DNA of 64,000 nucleotides from the NCBI RefSeq assembly GCF_001543285.1, contig NZ_CP014164.1, forward strand, positions 1,116,001 to 1,180,000, given 5' to 3'. Both the position numbers and the translations under genes were made by a program. The notes beneath the pieces were generated by a model, which ran no database searches, was not told the DNA's origin, and worked only from the letters and a program-made list of their open reading frames with translations. Positions 1,958 through 44,033 of this stretch are shown one piece after another. Position 1 is the first letter of the stretch; the number at the start of each line of letters is the position of its first letter. This stretch comes from Aerococcus viridans. Its GTDB lineage: Bacteria > Bacillota > Bacilli > Lactobacillales > Aerococcaceae.

Positions 1958-2606
1958 CGACCTCCTGAATGAAACGTGCCAGCTGTTCTTTTCCAGCTAG
2001 ATAGATTTTAATATTGGCTGAATTTAGTCGTTTACTTAAAGCTGAGGGTGATAATTCTAATTTTTTAGCAAGTGCTTTTTGATTAAATGATTGCTGGTAA
2101 ATCCCCGTCTCTAAAAGTCCATTGAAGACATATAGCTGGGTTTTAGTCCAACTTGACCGGATAGTATCCGTCAGTAAGAGCAGGGTATTGATGGTGTCAT
2201 CTTTTCCCTCTAGACCAGTAAAGACTTGACGTAAATTACCGCTGTAATCGTGTTGCTTGACTGATTCAATGGCGCTTCTAGCGTGCCAGTATGCAGGGCC
2301 ATCTGCGCCTATACTGACTTCAGGATCAATCTCTGTGGCTATTGACCCGTAACCAATCCCAAAGCGAATGGGGTGGGGAATGAGTCGTTGGATGTCATCT
2401 ATCATTTGAAACACTTGGTGATGAGGTTTAATCAACACTTGAAATTCATCACCTAAGGTTATCGTTAATTTTGAAGCGATGATGGCACCGTAGTTTTGGT
2501 TAATTGTAGCAAAACTTTCTAATAAGTTTTCTTGTAAGCTTTCTCGGTCAGCTGATTTTTTTGAATCAATTAAGTCACCGATAATCGCTATATAGTTTTT
2601 AGACAT
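1941..2606 (-). CDS. satD: SatD family protein
   Basis: The 221-residue protein has the SatD-type N-terminus (YIAIIGDLIDSKKSADRE), a central region with GDEFQVL and FGIGYGSI, and a C-terminal helix-turn-helix-like stretch (KALAKKLELSPSALSKRL). The name comes from a streptococcal acid-tolerance locus, and the biochemical role is not established. It is the first gene of a minus-strand cluster with a DUF3307 gene. The start at 2606 follows a GGAGGTG ribosome-binding site. The putative DNA-binding end, together with two inverted CCGTTAT motifs upstream, one across its own -10 element, suggests autoregulation (inference). Confidence 0.75.
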   Translation of the reverse strand: MSKNYIAIIGDLIDSKKSADRESLQENLLESFATINQNYGAIIASKLTITLGDEFQVLIKPHHQVFQMIDDIQRLIPHPIRFGIGYGSIATEIDPEVSIGADGPAYWHARSAIESVKQHDYSGNLRQVFTGLEGKDDTINTLLLLTDTIRSSWTKTQLYVFNGLLETGIYQQSFNQKALAKKLELSPSALSKRLNSANIKIYLAGKEQLARFIQEVDDTDS

Positions 2607-2624
2607 GAGGCACCTCCTTGATAT

Positions 2625-2698
2625 CCATTATAACGGAAATTATATTTAATTGCCAATATTACAGAAACTAAAACGATTAAAATATCCGTTATTTAGGA
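2625..2698. promoter_or_regulatory. satD promoter with two inverted CCGTTAT operator-like motifs
   Basis: On the minus strand, TTGGCA and TATAAT are 18 bp apart upstream of satD. The -10 is overlapped by the sequence ATTTCCGTTATAATGG (about 2625-2640). A related copy, ATATCCGTTATTTAGG, lies on the plus strand at about 2682-2697, in the opposite orientation; 13 of 16 positions agree. The arrangement looks like a pair of binding sites between satD and the divergent symporter gene. The binding protein is unknown; SatD itself is a candidate. Confidence 0.45.
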
Positions 2699-2913
2699 AA
2701 TTTATAAAAATTGTCTTTATTTCCGCCATACTTCACAATGTATGCACTACATCACATCTGTTCGGTAATTAATATGTTTCAATTTTAGACCAATAATGAC
2801 CGATATTCGATTATTTACTATAAAATCTTGAGTGCTATACTACGAGACAAGCTATTAGAGACCTATTGCTAACAAACTAAAGTAGGTCTTGATAAATGAT
2901 TGGAGGAATATGT

Positions 2914-4152
2914 ATGTTTAAAAAACCTAATTTATTGGTACAGATACTCATAGTTGCCATTTTAGGTATCGCCGTTGGGTACTTTTTCCCAGGCATCAGT
3001 GGTCATTTTGGTATTCTGGGGGAACTCTTTATGAACCTCATCCAAATGCTCGTCGTGCCACTCGTTTTCCCATTAATTGTCTTATCAGTGGTAGAAATCG
3101 GTGGTGGGAATCAACTAGGGAAGGTCATCTTTAAGGCAATTGGCTACTTTTTCCTCGTAACCACCTTTTTGATCGGCTTGACCTTGGTATTTGGTAGACT
3201 AGTGAATGTTGGTGGTGATGTAGCACTTGGTGAAATCTCTACCGAATCACTTGATGGGATTGCGACTGGGATTAACTTACAAGATTTCGTCTTGAGTATT
3301 ATCCCAAGCAATATCTTTCAAACTTTAGCTGATGGTAGCTTATTGCCAATCATTTTCTTTGCTATTTTCCTCGGTATAGGCCTAATCGCAATTGGTGATG
3401 AAGCAAAGCCAGTTATCGCTTTCTTTAATTCTTGGAAAACGGCCATCTTTAAAATGGTTGACTATGCCATACAATTTGCACCAATCGGGGTTTTCGGATT
3501 CCTAGCCTATGACGTTGCAATATATGGAATTTCAGGTATTTCTTCTGTATTCAGTTTCCTATTTTGGCTATACATCGCATACCTAACAGCCGCCTTAGTA
3601 ATCTATCCCATCATTGCTTACTGTTTCGGGGTATCCTATATTTCATTATTTAAATCCATCTCTGACTTGAGTTTTATCGCCTTTTTTACAGGCGGTTCAA
3701 GCGTGGTATTACCTTCACTTATCGAACGTTTAGAAGAAAATAAAGTCCCAAAAGTGATCTCATCTGGCGTAACGAGCCTAGGCTACACACTAAATCTAGG
3801 TGGTGCAGCTATCTATGTATCTTTGGCTATTTCCTTTATAATGAACATATATGATGCTTCATTAACAATTTCTGATTTTGTCGTTTTAGTAGTATTTCTT
3901 ACTTTTATTACTAAAACAATCGCTACAGTACCATCAGGGGCCATTGTCGTGCTTCTTGCTACGGCAAACCAATTAGGCTTACCATCTGAAGCAGTTGCCT
4001 TACTGGTATCCATTGATTTCTTCGCAAATGCAGGTAGAACAGCCTTAAATGTGGTTGGAAATGCTTTAGCAGCGACTATTATTGCCAAAACAGAAGACGC
4101 ACAATTGTCAGAATTCACTAAAATTAAAAAGAAAGAAGGCGCAAAAATTTGA
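2914..4152 (+). CDS. DAACS-family dicarboxylate/amino acid:cation symporter
   Basis: The 412-residue membrane protein has the GltP/DctA fold: N-terminal helices (LLVQILIVAILGIAVGYF), the FFTGGSSVVLPS re-entrant loop (usually TSSSAATLP), GYTLNLGGAAIYVSLA (usually NMDGTA), the ATVPSGAIV loop, and DFFANAGRTALNVVGN in the last substrate-binding helix. The substitution of NLGGA for NMDGT suggests a substrate other than ordinary glutamate or aspartate. ATG at 2914 is preferred over ATG at 2896 because GGAGG lies 7 nt before it. Its stop overlaps the next gene by 4 nt, so the transporter and the ATP-grasp enzyme are translationally coupled and probably handle the same compound (inference). Confidence 0.85.
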   Translation: MFKKPNLLVQILIVAILGIAVGYFFPGISGHFGILGELFMNLIQMLVVPLVFPLIVLSVVEIGGGNQLGKVIFKAIGYFFLVTTFLIGLTLVFGRLVNVGGDVALGEISTESLDGIATGINLQDFVLSIIPSNIFQTLADGSLLPIIFFAIFLGIGLIAIGDEAKPVIAFFNSWKTAIFKMVDYAIQFAPIGVFGFLAYDVAIYGISGISSVFSFLFWLYIAYLTAALVIYPIIAYCFGVSYISLFKSISDLSFIAFFTGGSSVVLPSLIERLEENKVPKVISSGVTSLGYTLNLGGAAIYVSLAISFIMNIYDASLTISDFVVLVVFLTFITKTIATVPSGAIVVLLATANQLGLPSEAVALLVSIDFFANAGRTALNVVGNALAATIIAKTEDAQLSEFTKIKKKEGAKI

Positions 4153-40992: not shown

Positions 40993-41030
40993 TTGAAATC
41001 TTTCAAAATAAACCTTAAAAAGGGGCTGGG

Positions 41031-41174
41031 ACAAAAGGTCTCTCAAAAAAATACACTCCCAAAACTATGAACTTTTTCGTTCAGTAGTGGGAGTGTATTT
41101 TTCTATATCTTTATAAAAATAAACGAAAGTTGGACTACTTTTTTCGCAAAAGTAGTTTTGTCCCAGCCTCTAAA
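41031..41174. repeat. Structured intergenic repeat, complete copy
   Basis: The ends are complementary (GGCTGGGACAAAA at about 41035 and TTTTGTCCCAGCC at about 41157). They enclose a long hairpin with stem AAAATACACTCCCA/TGGGAGTGTATTTT and a second perfect hairpin CTACTTTT/AAAAGTAG. The right half is found again at 47783-47850. The element looks like a small non-coding mobile or structural repeat that can also serve as a transcription stop. Confidence 0.75.
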
Positions 41175-41195: not shown

Positions 41196-41306
41196 ATGTC
41201 TACAGAAGAATTAAATAAACAACCTGATGGTGTCATTGTAAATAATCAATTAATTACAACTGATGAGATCATTGAGAGAACTAAAGTTTTTTTAGAGATA
41301 GAATAG
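41196..41306 (+). CDS. Short hypothetical protein (36 residues)
   Basis: ATG 41196 follows TAGGAGGAAAAC, a very good ribosome-binding site. The product is hydrophilic, with VIVNNQLITTDEIIERTKVF. It resembles nothing I recognise. It lies between the structured repeat and the convergent riboswitch-controlled genes and overlaps the last of those by 15 bp. The strong initiation site is the only reason to call it. Confidence 0.4.
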   Translation: MSTEELNKQPDGVIVNNQLITTDEIIERTKVFLEIE

Positions 41307-41525
41307 CTGCAAACCATGTACTCTATCTTTCTCTGTTAACATTTCTTCAGACACTGGTAGCATAAATATATCTTCAATAGTTCTTATTAACTCATTATAT
41401 TTATGGTAATCCTTATAAGCGTGGTACCCTACGAATACAAGCGCCAATTGTAAAATTAAGCTAGACAAATAAAAAAGAGAAACTGTTGTAAATAAGTACA
41501 CTAGTTTCTCTTCGGTTTTATTCAA
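41292..41525 (-). CDS. Small membrane protein of unknown function, in the SAM-riboswitch operon
   Basis: The 77-residue product has a hydrophobic region at residues 8-36 (VYLFTTVSLFYLSSLILQLA then LVFVGYHAY), enough for one long or two short membrane helices, followed by a charged tail. It begins with TTG inside the 3' end of the preceding small gene (8-bp overlap), so translation is probably coupled. No family was recognised. Both genes would be controlled by the upstream SAM-I riboswitch. Confidence 0.5.
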   Translation of the reverse strand: MNKTEEKLVYLFTTVSLFYLSSLILQLALVFVGYHAYKDYHKYNELIRTIEDIFMLPVSEEMLTEKDRVHGLQLFYL

Positions 41526-41739
41526 TATAATTTCTTTTATCCTTAATATCTTCTAACATTTCAATAGTTTCTTCAATTTTAGGAAGAATTTCTTCGTACC
41601 AAGACAATCTTTTCCTACGGATTAAAACACCTACAGCGTGTGGCCTTGGATCAATTTCTTCCCAATAGGATTGTCGTTCCAATACGACTTTTTTAAGATC
41701 CACAAAATACTCTTTAACTTCAACTGCACTTACTTCCAT
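41518..41739 (-). CDS. Small soluble protein of unknown function, first gene after a SAM-I riboswitch
   Basis: The 73-residue product is charged and mostly helical in appearance (VKEYFVDLKKVVLERQSYWE, then WYEEILPKIEETIEMLEDIK). I do not recognise it. AAAGGAG lies 11 nt before ATG 41739, just after the riboswitch terminator. It has no link by sequence to methionine or sulfur metabolism. It could be a recent neighbour that replaced the original riboswitch target, or part of a real SAM-responsive small-protein pair. Confidence 0.55.
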   Translation of the reverse strand: MEVSAVEVKEYFVDLKKVVLERQSYWEEIDPRPHAVGVLIRRKRLSWYEEILPKIEETIEMLEDIKDKRNYIE

Positions 41740-41770
41740 TACAACAAAATCTCCTTTTATTATTTTGCAA

Positions 41771-41808
41771 TAAAAAAAGCGCCACTTAGTAATTAAGAAG
41801 TGTTCGCC
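41771..41808 (-). terminator. Riboswitch expression-platform terminator
   Basis: On the minus strand GGCGAACACTT pairs with AAGTGGCGC around an AT-rich loop and is followed by TTTTTTT. It lies between the SAM aptamer and the small genes and is the expected off-state stop. Confidence 0.8.
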
Positions 41809-41819
41809 TGAATGTTTTA

Positions 41820-41919
41820 CTTATTTTTCAAGTTTACACTTGTTGGATTTAGCACCGTTCCCTTAAGGTCGGTTGCTGAAGCATCATCGGGCCAATTCCC
41901 TCCACTTTCTCTTAATAAG
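41820..41919 (-). ncRNA. SAM-I (S-box) riboswitch aptamer
   Basis: Read on the minus strand, the sequence has P1 CTTATT, then AAGAGAAAGTGGAGGGA, TTGGCCCGATGATGC, TTCAGCAACC, and GGTGCTAAATCC before the closing P1 AATAAG. These are the conserved SAM-I core blocks in correct order (GGAGGGA, GGCCC-GATGA, CAGCAACC, GGTGCTAA). SAM binding would favour the terminator at 41771-41808 and switch the downstream genes off when SAM is plentiful. Confidence 0.93.
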
Positions 41920-41942: not shown

Positions 41943-41971
41943 AAAATAGCAAAATTTCTTTAAAATGTCAA
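41943..41971 (-). promoter_or_regulatory. Promoter of the SAM-riboswitch transcript
   Basis: TTGACA (41966-41971, minus strand) and TATTTT (41943-41948) are 17 bp apart, placing transcription start about 15-20 bp before the aptamer. Confidence 0.6.
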
Positions 41972-42055: not shown

Positions 42056-42409
42056 TCAAAGATAAAAAATTAATACTTTTCCAACTATAGGAGTTAAATT
42101 TATAATATTTGAATCTACCATAATTAAATTCTCCTTAAATCCGACAGTATTATAAAAAATGACAGGTATCTCAACTTTAATGACCGGTTGAATTGCTCTG
42201 TATAACGGATAGAGAGCGTATCCTTCTGAAATATCATAACGACTGTAAACTTTGCGATACTCATTCCCAGCTAACAAACAATCATCGAATAAGCCGTGGT
42301 TTATTTTTCGTCTTAAACCACGGTTAAAAATCTTTTTCATGTGGCTTCTGTTGTACTTATTTCTAGGAAATTTACGAAAACTCCTACTCCCATTAAGTCC
42401 CCCTTTCAA
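42056..42409 (-). CDS. Hypothetical protein
   Basis: A frame of 117 codons with only a TTG at its beginning; an internal ATG at codon 24 (MKKIFNRGLRRKINHG) is as likely a start. The product is basic at the N-terminus and has no membrane segment or motif that I recognise. Upstream AAAGGGGGA sits in a place that fits neither start well. It may be a remnant or a gene that came with the island. Confidence 0.35.
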   Translation of the reverse strand: MKGGLNGSRSFRKFPRNKYNRSHMKKIFNRGLRRKINHGLFDDCLLAGNEYRKVYSRYDISEGYALYPLYRAIQPVIKVEIPVIFYNTVGFKENLIMVDSNIINLTPIVGKVLIFYL

Positions 42410-42478: not shown

Positions 42479-42868
42479 CTATTTTGAATGCACTTCGAGC
42501 CATGAAGAAATAGCTTCCCATGTAAGGTCTTTATCTGTAGCAATCGCTACCGTATAGTCTTCTATTTCTTTATTGCTAACGTTTAACGTCACACCGTTTA
42601 AACGTAAAAATGTATGAACCGCAACCAATGCGGTCCGCTTATTGGCATTGTAAAGACAGTGTTTCTGAACTAGTTTTTGGTACAATATGGCTGCTTTATC
42701 AAACAGAGTCGGATAAAGTTCTTTATCAAATACAGCCTGTTTCGGTAAAGCGACACACATATTCAAAGCGGTTGGCTCCTTTACGCCGATCTGCTCCTCA
42801 GGGCTGTAGCGTTGAATCTGCAGCGTATTAATCATAACTAATTCCCGTTCAGTTAAATAACGGATCAT
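42479..42868 (-). CDS. Doc/Fic-type toxin (death-on-curing family)
   Basis: The 129-residue protein has the Doc motif HCLYNANKR at residues 70-78, the active loop of Fic-fold kinases that phosphorylate elongation factor Tu. The flanking helices EPTALNMCVALPKQAVFDKE and NKEIEDYTVAIA also fit. It overlaps the antitoxin stop by 4 bp (ATGA), the usual toxin-antitoxin coupling. It would arrest translation if unopposed. Confidence 0.88.
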   Translation of the reverse strand: MIRYLTERELVMINTLQIQRYSPEEQIGVKEPTALNMCVALPKQAVFDKELYPTLFDKAAILYQKLVQKHCLYNANKRTALVAVHTFLRLNGVTLNVSNKEIEDYTVAIATDKDLTWEAISSWLEVHSK

Positions 42869-43098
42869 CGGCTAACGAGTCCTTCAAGTGCAACAGTGTA
42901 GTCATCCATCACTGCGTTAACCGTTGCTAAAAAATCGTCTTCTTTTTCGGCAGCTTTACGGATTTCAACGCGACCACCTTTGATAACATATTCAATGGGA
43001 TCACCCACGTTTAAGTTGAGTTGCTGTAAGACATCGGGTGGGAGTGTCGTAATCACGCTGTGTCCCGATTTACGTGTACTTCTTTGAATCATTTTCAT
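42865..43098 (-). CDS. AbrB/MazE-type antitoxin of the Doc system
   Basis: The 77-residue protein begins with a SpoVT-AbrB swapped-hairpin DNA-binding domain (RKSGHSVITTLPPDVLQQLN then VGDPIEYVIKGGRVEIRK) and ends with an acidic tail that would bind the toxin. ATG 43098 follows GAGGTGAT; an upstream in-frame start has no site. It is the first gene of the pair and lies directly behind a duplicated 18-bp motif, expected to be its own operator. Confidence 0.85.
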   Translation of the reverse strand: MKMIQRSTRKSGHSVITTLPPDVLQQLNLNVGDPIEYVIKGGRVEIRKAAEKEDDFLATVNAVMDDYTVALEGLVSR

Positions 43099-43118
43099 AT
43101 TTATCACCTCATACATAT

Positions 43119-43221: not shown

Positions 43222-44033
43222 TGTTCTGTTGCAAAGTTTTAAATCTACTATCAAATAAGGTAGCATAATAGAAAAAGATAGCAGGAGGAATGACGATGAA
43301 TCATTTTAAAGGAAAGCAATTTCAGTAGGATGTGATTATTGTAGCCGTGGGCTACTATCTTCGTTATAACCTTAGCTATCGTGAAGTTCAAGAAATCTTA
43401 TATGATTGTGGCATTAACGTTTCTCATACGACGATTTATCGTTGGGTGCAAGAATATGGCAAACTACTCTATCAAATTTGGAAAAAGAAAAATAAAAAAT
43501 CCTTTTATTCATGGAAAATGGATGAAACGTACATCAAAATTAAAGGAAAATGGCATTATTTGTATCGAGCCATCGATGCAGATGGTTTAACCTTGGATAT
43601 TTGGTTACGTAAAAAACGGGACACACAAGCAGCCTATGCTTTTCTTAAGCGGTTAGTGAAGCAGTTTGATGAACCGAAGGTTGTAGTCACAGATAAAGCC
43701 CCCTCTATTACAAGTGCCTTTAAGAAACTAAAAGAATACGGTGGCTTTTATCAAGGGACAGAACATCGTACCATTAAATACCTGAATAATTTGATTGAAC
43801 AAGACCATCGTCCAGTAAAGAGACGCAATAAATTCTATCGAAGTTTACGCACTGCCTCTACCACGATTAAAGGCATGGAAGCCATTCGAGGATTATATAA
43901 GAAAACCCGAAAAGAAGGCACTCTCTTCGGGTTTTCGGTCTGTACTGAAATCAAGATATTATTGGGAATCCCAGCTTAAATCATAGATACCGTAAGGGAT
44001 TTTATTCTTTATTTAAAACTTTGCAACAGAACC
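43222..44033. mobile_element. IS6-family (IS1216/ISS1-like) element
   Basis: The ends carry inverted copies of GTTCTGTTGCAAAGTTTT (left 43223, right 44016-44032). The outermost base differs at the left end. Length, about 812 bp, is that of ISS1/IS1216. The 8 bp on either side do not match, so the element is not in a simple insertion state; IS6 elements often recombine and leave mosaics. Its right end abuts the T run of the terminator behind the quinone-oxidoreductase gene. Confidence 0.9.
43296..43979 (+). pseudogene. IS6-family transposase with nonsense mutation at codon 11
   Basis: The frame starts at ATG 43296 behind AGGAGG with MNHFKGKQFQ, but codon 11 is TAG (43326-43328). The rest is intact: helix-turn-helix YREVQEILYDCGINVSHTT, DDE residues in WKMDETYIKIKGKW, VVVTDKAPS and the Glu in YLNNLIEQDHRPVKRR. 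The normal residue here is Lys or Gln in ISS1/IS1216 relatives. Re-initiation at GTG 43332 would lose 12 residues. It is probably inactive or weakly active. Confidence 0.85.

Follow-up and report, generated by a model that had tools for sequence, protein, structure and literature searches.

A putative single-gene SAM-I riboswitch unit in Aerococcus viridans and the pairing of SAM-I leaders with orphan small proteins in the Aerococcaceae

A 64-kb stretch of the Aerococcus viridans genome (2.2 Mb, one contig), hereafter the window, gives one RNA match only when scanned in full with cmscan at gathering thresholds, namely a SAM-I (S-box) aptamer on the minus strand (41921-41818), which covers model positions 1-108 of RF00162 at 81.4 bits (cut-off 44.4; E 1.3e-17). 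The second SAM-I site of this genome is located at G000:C1:1893542-1893639. The aptamer in the window is preceded by a promoter-like site, TTGACA-17-TATTTT (41943-41971, minus strand), with a TG before the second hexamer and 10 of 12 matching positions, and is followed by an intrinsic terminator with a U7 tail (41772-41809, minus strand; -8.3 kcal/mol), a Shine-Dalgarno sequence, a gene for a 73-aa protein (41739-41518, minus strand; hairpin group A below) and, as seen by eye, another intrinsic terminator (41512-41471, minus strand). A preliminary description of this DNA, made without database searches, had proposed a complete SAM-I aptamer, a promoter with 17-bp spacing and a seven-T terminator, and all three were recovered. 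Upstream on the same island are genes for a MazE-like antitoxin and a Doc/Fic toxin (42479-43116, minus strand), which occur in the same order on an Aerococcus suis contig (L031), and an IS6/IS240-type transposase gene (43332-43979, plus strand); the A. suis contig is flanked by fragments of this element. A 117-aa ORF upstream of the unit (42056-42409, minus strand), for which no family match exceeds the cut-off, is also common to A. suis, and a MITE-like segment with the terminal inverted repeat GGGGCTGGGACAAAA...TTTTGTCCCAGCC lies beside the small-gene region (41022-41171).

The leader has the sequence and structure of the SAM-I aptamer and, like other members of this class, a putative transcription-termination platform, but its target is one orphan small protein, which is not recognisable as a product of methionine, cysteine or SAM metabolism genes. 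The number of promoter-like sites in this region is what chance would give (8 observed vs 8.3), and the support for this one is therefore the recurrence of TTGACA and its spacing in the A. suis and Enterococcus faecium copies (L031 and L032, by eye). The leader terminator is absent from the output of a generic terminator scan, and the predicted fold of the 236-nt leader region is not notably more stable than those of shuffled sequences (z -1.15; 27 of 200 shuffles equally good). The Shine-Dalgarno sequence is kept in all seven group A leaders, and a terminator was identified by the rule used for the site table in six of the seven units, including the broken one of G020; that of G190 was missed by the rule. 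In all seven leaders, three of which are nearly identical, the minimum-energy fold of the local segment is an antiterminator, formed by pairing of both strands of P4 with the 5' side of the terminator. When longer transcripts of the leaders were folded, the probabilities of the central antiterminator pairs were 0.16-0.38 in four of the seven, 0.01 in G190, and 0.79 and 0.99 in the other two, and the probability of P1 was about 0.01 or less in all seven. An initial antiterminator model lacking the 5' strand of P4 was weak (-1.9 kcal/mol).

The 77-residue membrane protein that the preliminary description regarded as a co-translated partner of the 73-aa protein does not belong to the unit, as judged from the sequence comparisons. 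This frame (41292-41525, minus strand) starts with a TTG and shares its first 8 nt with the end of the 73-aa frame, and its codons 1 to about 28 consist of the intrinsic terminator (41512-41471) and a solitary 36-37-nt end of an IS30-family element (41477-41441). The copies of the window, of A. suis, and of the two E. faecium plasmids are alike through the hairpin and the sequence TTTTACAAT[CT]GGCG and then diverge; the final 36-37 nt before the divergence are the IS30 end, copies of which adjoin an IS30 transposase in L032 (a 36-nt copy) and in plasmid pRBWH1.1. Only the first 28 or so codons are thus found in L031, L032, and L033, and the remainder (41440-41292) is unrelated DNA, to which nothing corresponds in A. 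suis or on either E. faecium plasmid. In four genomes of another family, the ~140 nt behind the 73-aa gene contain nothing like the frame. Of 72,556 plasmid records, 581 match the 634-nt unit in some part, and 15 of the 20 plasmid matches listed cover the IS30 end alone. The 3' part of the frame together with half of the hairpin is present in the Aerococcus urinaeequi plasmid pT4302 (182 of 186 nt identical), with other neighbours and ends and without a riboswitch or an annotated gene. A separate membrane ORF may exist in that plasmid, but not as a demonstrated partner of the riboswitch gene.

The 73-residue frame proposed in the preliminary description is, in contrast, a conserved gene. A search of 5.8 billion proteins yielded 19 relatives, two of which are marked as the window's own and none of which has a Pfam domain. 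The gene is present in 3 of 76 Aerococcaceae genomes and in 7 of 395 genomes of the order, i.e. A. viridans, G006, G040, G101, G190, G210, and, as a broken copy, G020; G040, G101, G190, and G210 represent one genus of another family. It was also found in two of the 72,556 plasmid records, both from E. faecium, and in none of 50,697 phage records. SAM-I lies directly upstream in all seven genomes and in E. faecium NZ_LR134110.1, whereas in E. faecium NZ_CP110295.1 an IS1216 copy replaces the leader and the first residues of the gene. The window unit shares 98.5% DNA identity with A. suis over 1,959 bp and 93.7% with plasmid NZ_LR134110.1 over 635 bp, and the 73-aa sequence encoded on the A. suis contig is identical to that of G006. 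The four other-family genomes have the whole aptamer-terminator-RBS-gene unit, at a protein identity of 53-55%. The distance from aptamer to start codon is 76-78 nt in eight intact loci, two of which are from the same species, and a terminator-like hairpin follows the gene in the relatives, with a different sequence in the four other-family genomes. The dN/dS ratio of the window gene was 0.20 against G040 and 0.17 against G101, at dS values of 1.6-1.8 that are near saturation; against G190 and G210, dS came out as infinite (saturated). Among the three mobile copies the ratio was 0.5-0.9 on 5-10 changes, which are too few for selection to be demonstrable there.

Searches of Pfam, NCBIfam, PHROGs (E up to 1), and PADLOC gave no match for the 73-aa protein, and its best match by sequence in the PDB has an E value of 0.34. 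The protein is predicted to form a two-helix hairpin (AlphaFold2, pLDDT 88.6), an arrangement likewise found among proteins of the PDB, and its invariant residues (W26, E28, D30, P33-V38, R44, L45, W47, and Y48 in 18 aligned rows) are placed around the turn. The preliminary description had offered undescribed SAM-regulated small proteins as one of two readings; the recurrence of the same unit in relatives favours this for the 73-aa gene and not for the 77-aa frame. It had also named an arrangement that would speak against it, relatives in which a methionine gene directly follows the aptamer and both frames are missing; this is not the case for the 73-aa frame, and the 77-aa frame is indeed absent from these relatives. 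On sequence grounds, the riboswitch thus appears to control a single gene, the 73-aa ORF at 41739-41518(-).

The targets of SAM-I were then compared across the family and the order. SAM-I was found at 61 sites in 41 of the 76 Aerococcaceae genomes and was not found, with strict filters, in the remaining 35, so that the response would be dispensable. A table of 74 sites was compiled from 56 of the 61 Aerococcaceae sites and 18 from elsewhere in the order; outside it are five weak sites of genus g5 (G086:C1, G088:C92, G092:C29, G093:C5, and G094:C1), four loci at 33-47 bits (L125 and L126, both with metK by eye, L129 with a 113-aa ORF, and the interrupted L127), and family f7 and other weak matches among those listed for the order. 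Among the 56 Aerococcaceae sites, 43 precede three small-protein groups (hairpin, 9; B, 20; and D, 14), with broken copies counted, and nine precede classical or SAM-related genes (three metK and six Orn/Lys/Arg decarboxylase genes). For the 74 sites, the downstream genes are hairpin (17), B (20), D (18), and others (19). The hairpin group comprises A (73 aa), F (60-62 aa), C (102-119 aa), and C2 (79-86 aa); B proteins have 104-108 aa, and D proteins have about 80-110 aa with GGPK or GGPR followed by AM..H. The other targets, named by eye with the decarboxylase tested for one of six, are metK (4), the Orn/Lys/Arg decarboxylase (6), a 135-aa protein (2), metN, a permease, a 92-aa protein, a 63-aa protein, an unassigned frame in G298, and two sites without a clear ORF. 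Broken units (G020, G021, and G069) and units with in-frame stops (G028 and G084) are included in these counts. None of the three small-protein groups has a Pfam match above cut-off. SAM-I in the Aerococcaceae thus seems to be largely dedicated to orphan small proteins. Family f7, probably the Listeriaceae judging from its classical regulon, has readable targets at five of six sites (three genomes), which are metE, metQ, and metN by eye.

A terminator was identified by the table rule in 16 of 17 hairpin units, 20 of 20 B units, and 14 of 18 D units. The four D units without one come from f3 genomes, in which the Shine-Dalgarno sequence abuts the 3' strand of P1, whereas D units of family f1 have a terminator platform; group D therefore carries two expression platforms for one protein group. 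A DUF488-like gene (by eye) stands behind D in several genomes of g5 (L007, L051-L054, and L057), and another precedes D in G083 (L138). In the second SAM-I site of genus g5 (L077-L082), a weak SAM-I of about 44 bits precedes the Orn/Lys/Arg decarboxylase gene, and in L078, the one decarboxylase tested, 21 residues near the N-terminus align to the N-terminus of MetK, as if a leader and the start of metK had been captured.

The small proteins are tightly linked to SAM-I. A B profile gave 24 match rows in 18 of the 76 Aerococcaceae genomes; all 18 full-length copies, two of them with an in-frame stop, lie directly behind SAM-I, as do three of the six fragments, the other three (G017:C29, G070:C39, and G084:C3:66629) having no listed SAM-I in front. 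All 14 matches of a D profile in whole genomes, and 16 of 18 matches of a hairpin (A/F/C/C2) profile in 385 genomes of the order, are directly behind SAM-I. The two exceptions, in G286 and G137 (E 4e-5 and 4e-4), lack a SAM-I aptamer in the 3-kb loci around them, overlap longer, seemingly unrelated frames, and are probably chance matches. In 299 genomes of the class, the hairpin profile found the A. viridans genome alone. As most of the sequences behind the profiles were themselves neighbours of SAM-I, these searches probe for unlinked copies, and the counts are not independent observations, given the shared descent of the genomes. Within the hairpin group, a candidate superfamily, hhalign probabilities were 82% for A-F, 34% for F-C, and 96% for C-C2, each reached by none of 100 column shuffles, and were 3, 0.8, and 6% for A-C, A-C2, and F-C2, respectively; AF against CC2 gave 0.9%, with 2 of 100 shuffles as good. 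B and D showed no relation to A by any comparison made, and the predicted structures of A and B have no meaningful structural match. B is predicted to be an alpha-beta protein (pLDDT 83.1) with invariant H38, C59, and C62 and near-invariant D39, H54, and C61, which possibly form a metal site.

Other sensors of methionine and SAM were identified in the same genomes. The metK gene was found in all 20 genomes checked and is preceded by SAM-III (SMK box) in 15, including A. viridans (RF01767, 56.1 bits; cut-off 45); in G006, G010, G302, G081, and G014, no SAM-III match before metK exceeds the cut-off. SAM-III also senses SAM, but it is a different RNA with a different target and works beside the SAM-I unit in A. 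viridans. The metY gene of A. viridans (TIGR01326, 633.6 bits; cut-off 495.1) is located behind a T-box, the specifier of which reads AUG in the alignment and is thus read as Met-specific. This resembles the Met-specific T-boxes of the Lactobacillales; T-boxes sense tRNA charging, not SAM. Control by T-boxes is the preferred mode for methionine biosynthesis genes in this order (PMC3771891), and the passages of that paper considered here do not mention SAM-I units with small proteins. Other sensors therefore cover metK and metY in A. viridans, and both SAM-I sites of this genome precede small proteins (A and B, respectively), the B gene ending 1.1 kb upstream of metY. Second metK copies are present in G018, G024, G081, and G210, and the metK gene of G083 is split into two pieces.

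Taken together, these data point to a self-contained, monocistronic SAM-I unit in the window, belonging to a SAM-I regulon of mainly orphan small proteins in the Aerococcaceae and a neighbouring family, a reading to which we assign a probability of about 0.75. When SAM is plentiful, the aptamer would fold with P1 and P4 formed, leaving the 5' arm of the terminator free so that transcription stops; when SAM is low, the P4 strands would pair with this arm as an antiterminator, and the 73-residue helical-hairpin protein would be made. We infer this OFF logic from the antiterminator/terminator arrangement, and SAM binding by analogy with the known riboswitch family. As for the protein itself, the most likely role is that of an effector made at low SAM, which would bind a host protein or RNA involved in the supply or use of methionine or SAM and adjust its activity; this role is proposed tentatively and is more doubtful than probable.

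The setting of several units raises the main alternative, that the small proteins serve the mobile elements carrying them, in maintenance, timing, defence, or anti-defence, with SAM as a read-out of the host state. The window copy has an IS30 end, a toxin-antitoxin pair, and an IS6-type transposase gene in its vicinity, the A. suis contig is bounded by IS6-type ends, and the E. faecium copies are on plasmids; genes for recombinases or integrases (G024, G081, G065, and G222), a C5-methylase (G030), and GmrSD (G079) are present at distances of up to 4 kb from the unit. The latter genes come from a set of nine neighbours picked by eye in 16 neighbourhoods, one of the nine being without a family, and other copies are surrounded by seemingly ordinary chromosomal genes (by eye). 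Moreover, A, B, C, and g5-type D had no match in the 50,697 phage records and B, C, and f3-type D none in the 72,556 plasmid records, and PADLOC gave no match for the six proteins tried. We regard this alternative as unlikely. The IS-rich surroundings, with an IS30 end directly behind the gene, could also suggest, as in the other reading of the preliminary description, that the real target was lost when the island was reshaped by IS elements, in which case the 73-aa frame would be incidental. The recurrence of this arrangement in six further intact copies (those of A. suis, of one E. faecium plasmid, and of the four other-family genomes), the constant spacing behind the aptamer, the low dN/dS against two of these copies, and the terminator-like hairpin behind the gene indicate that the target was not lost, and we give this explanation hardly any credence.

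Some SAM-I RNAs of Listeria are reported to act in trans as terminated leaders, and the window leader looks more similar to its other-family counterparts than the protein does (by eye), as would be expected if a terminated RNA acting in trans were the product that matters and the ORF were secondary. The low dN/dS of the coding sequence and the Shine-Dalgarno sequence kept in seven of seven leaders are at variance with this, and it is very improbable. A search of an open-access library by titles and the beginnings of abstracts revealed nothing on this topic in the SAM-I or riboswitch literature on Aerococcus and Facklamia.

A tree of the aptamers (45 rows and 105 columns, the bootstrap not having settled) places the A, B, C, C2, F, G, and H aptamers in one group of 33, together with the permease, f3, metN_G252, and g14 metK aptamers; the aptamers of A, B, C, F, and H, many of them on short branches, fall into a single poorly resolved group that also contains permease, metN, and metK aptamers, and the f1-type D, I, and decarboxylase leaders are outside the group of 33. 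The aptamer of the 92-aa protein G is nested inside the C2 group (support 99/87; nested fork 90/77), and the protein itself misses the hairpin profile. This topology fits a repeated change of the downstream gene without proving it. SAM-I leaders may accordingly be portable low-SAM cassettes that have repeatedly been paired with unrelated small proteins, including hairpin, B, D, and rarer ones, in a dedicated response separate from methionine metabolism, a proposal that we place a little short of even odds; it may be a case of an RNA switch moved between genes. Riboswitch targets reveal what a metabolite means to a cell, and an intensely studied riboswitch class here points to several undescribed, tightly linked protein groups. 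Pairing with small proteins instead of methionine genes hints at an unstudied response to low SAM, and the partners of these proteins would show low-SAM behaviour beyond making more methionine. Each unit is small, with one ligand, one promoter, and one protein of 60-120 residues.

Inspection of the 16 neighbourhoods by eye showed no common neighbour of the small-protein units. A GldA-type gene, followed by an aminotransferase gene and a MetQ-like gene, is 1.3 kb from the A unit in G101, and the GldA-type gene of G040, at 3 kb, carries a T-box, the specifier of which is read as AUG; as this arrangement is missing in G190 and G210, it was not used as evidence. G194, from another family, contains three identical 3.1-kb copies (L127, L130, and L131) exactly 73,123 bases apart, which hold an A-unit promoter and the first half of a SAM-I aptamer interrupted by IS3-like sequence (by eye) and may be an assembly or amplification effect. 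The A. suis contig additionally carries an M-box magnesium riboswitch (L031:3785-3955, minus strand) followed by mgtE (2262-3650, minus strand; TIGR00400), so that two riboswitch-controlled genes, this one and that of the SAM-I unit, are present on one IS-bounded segment.
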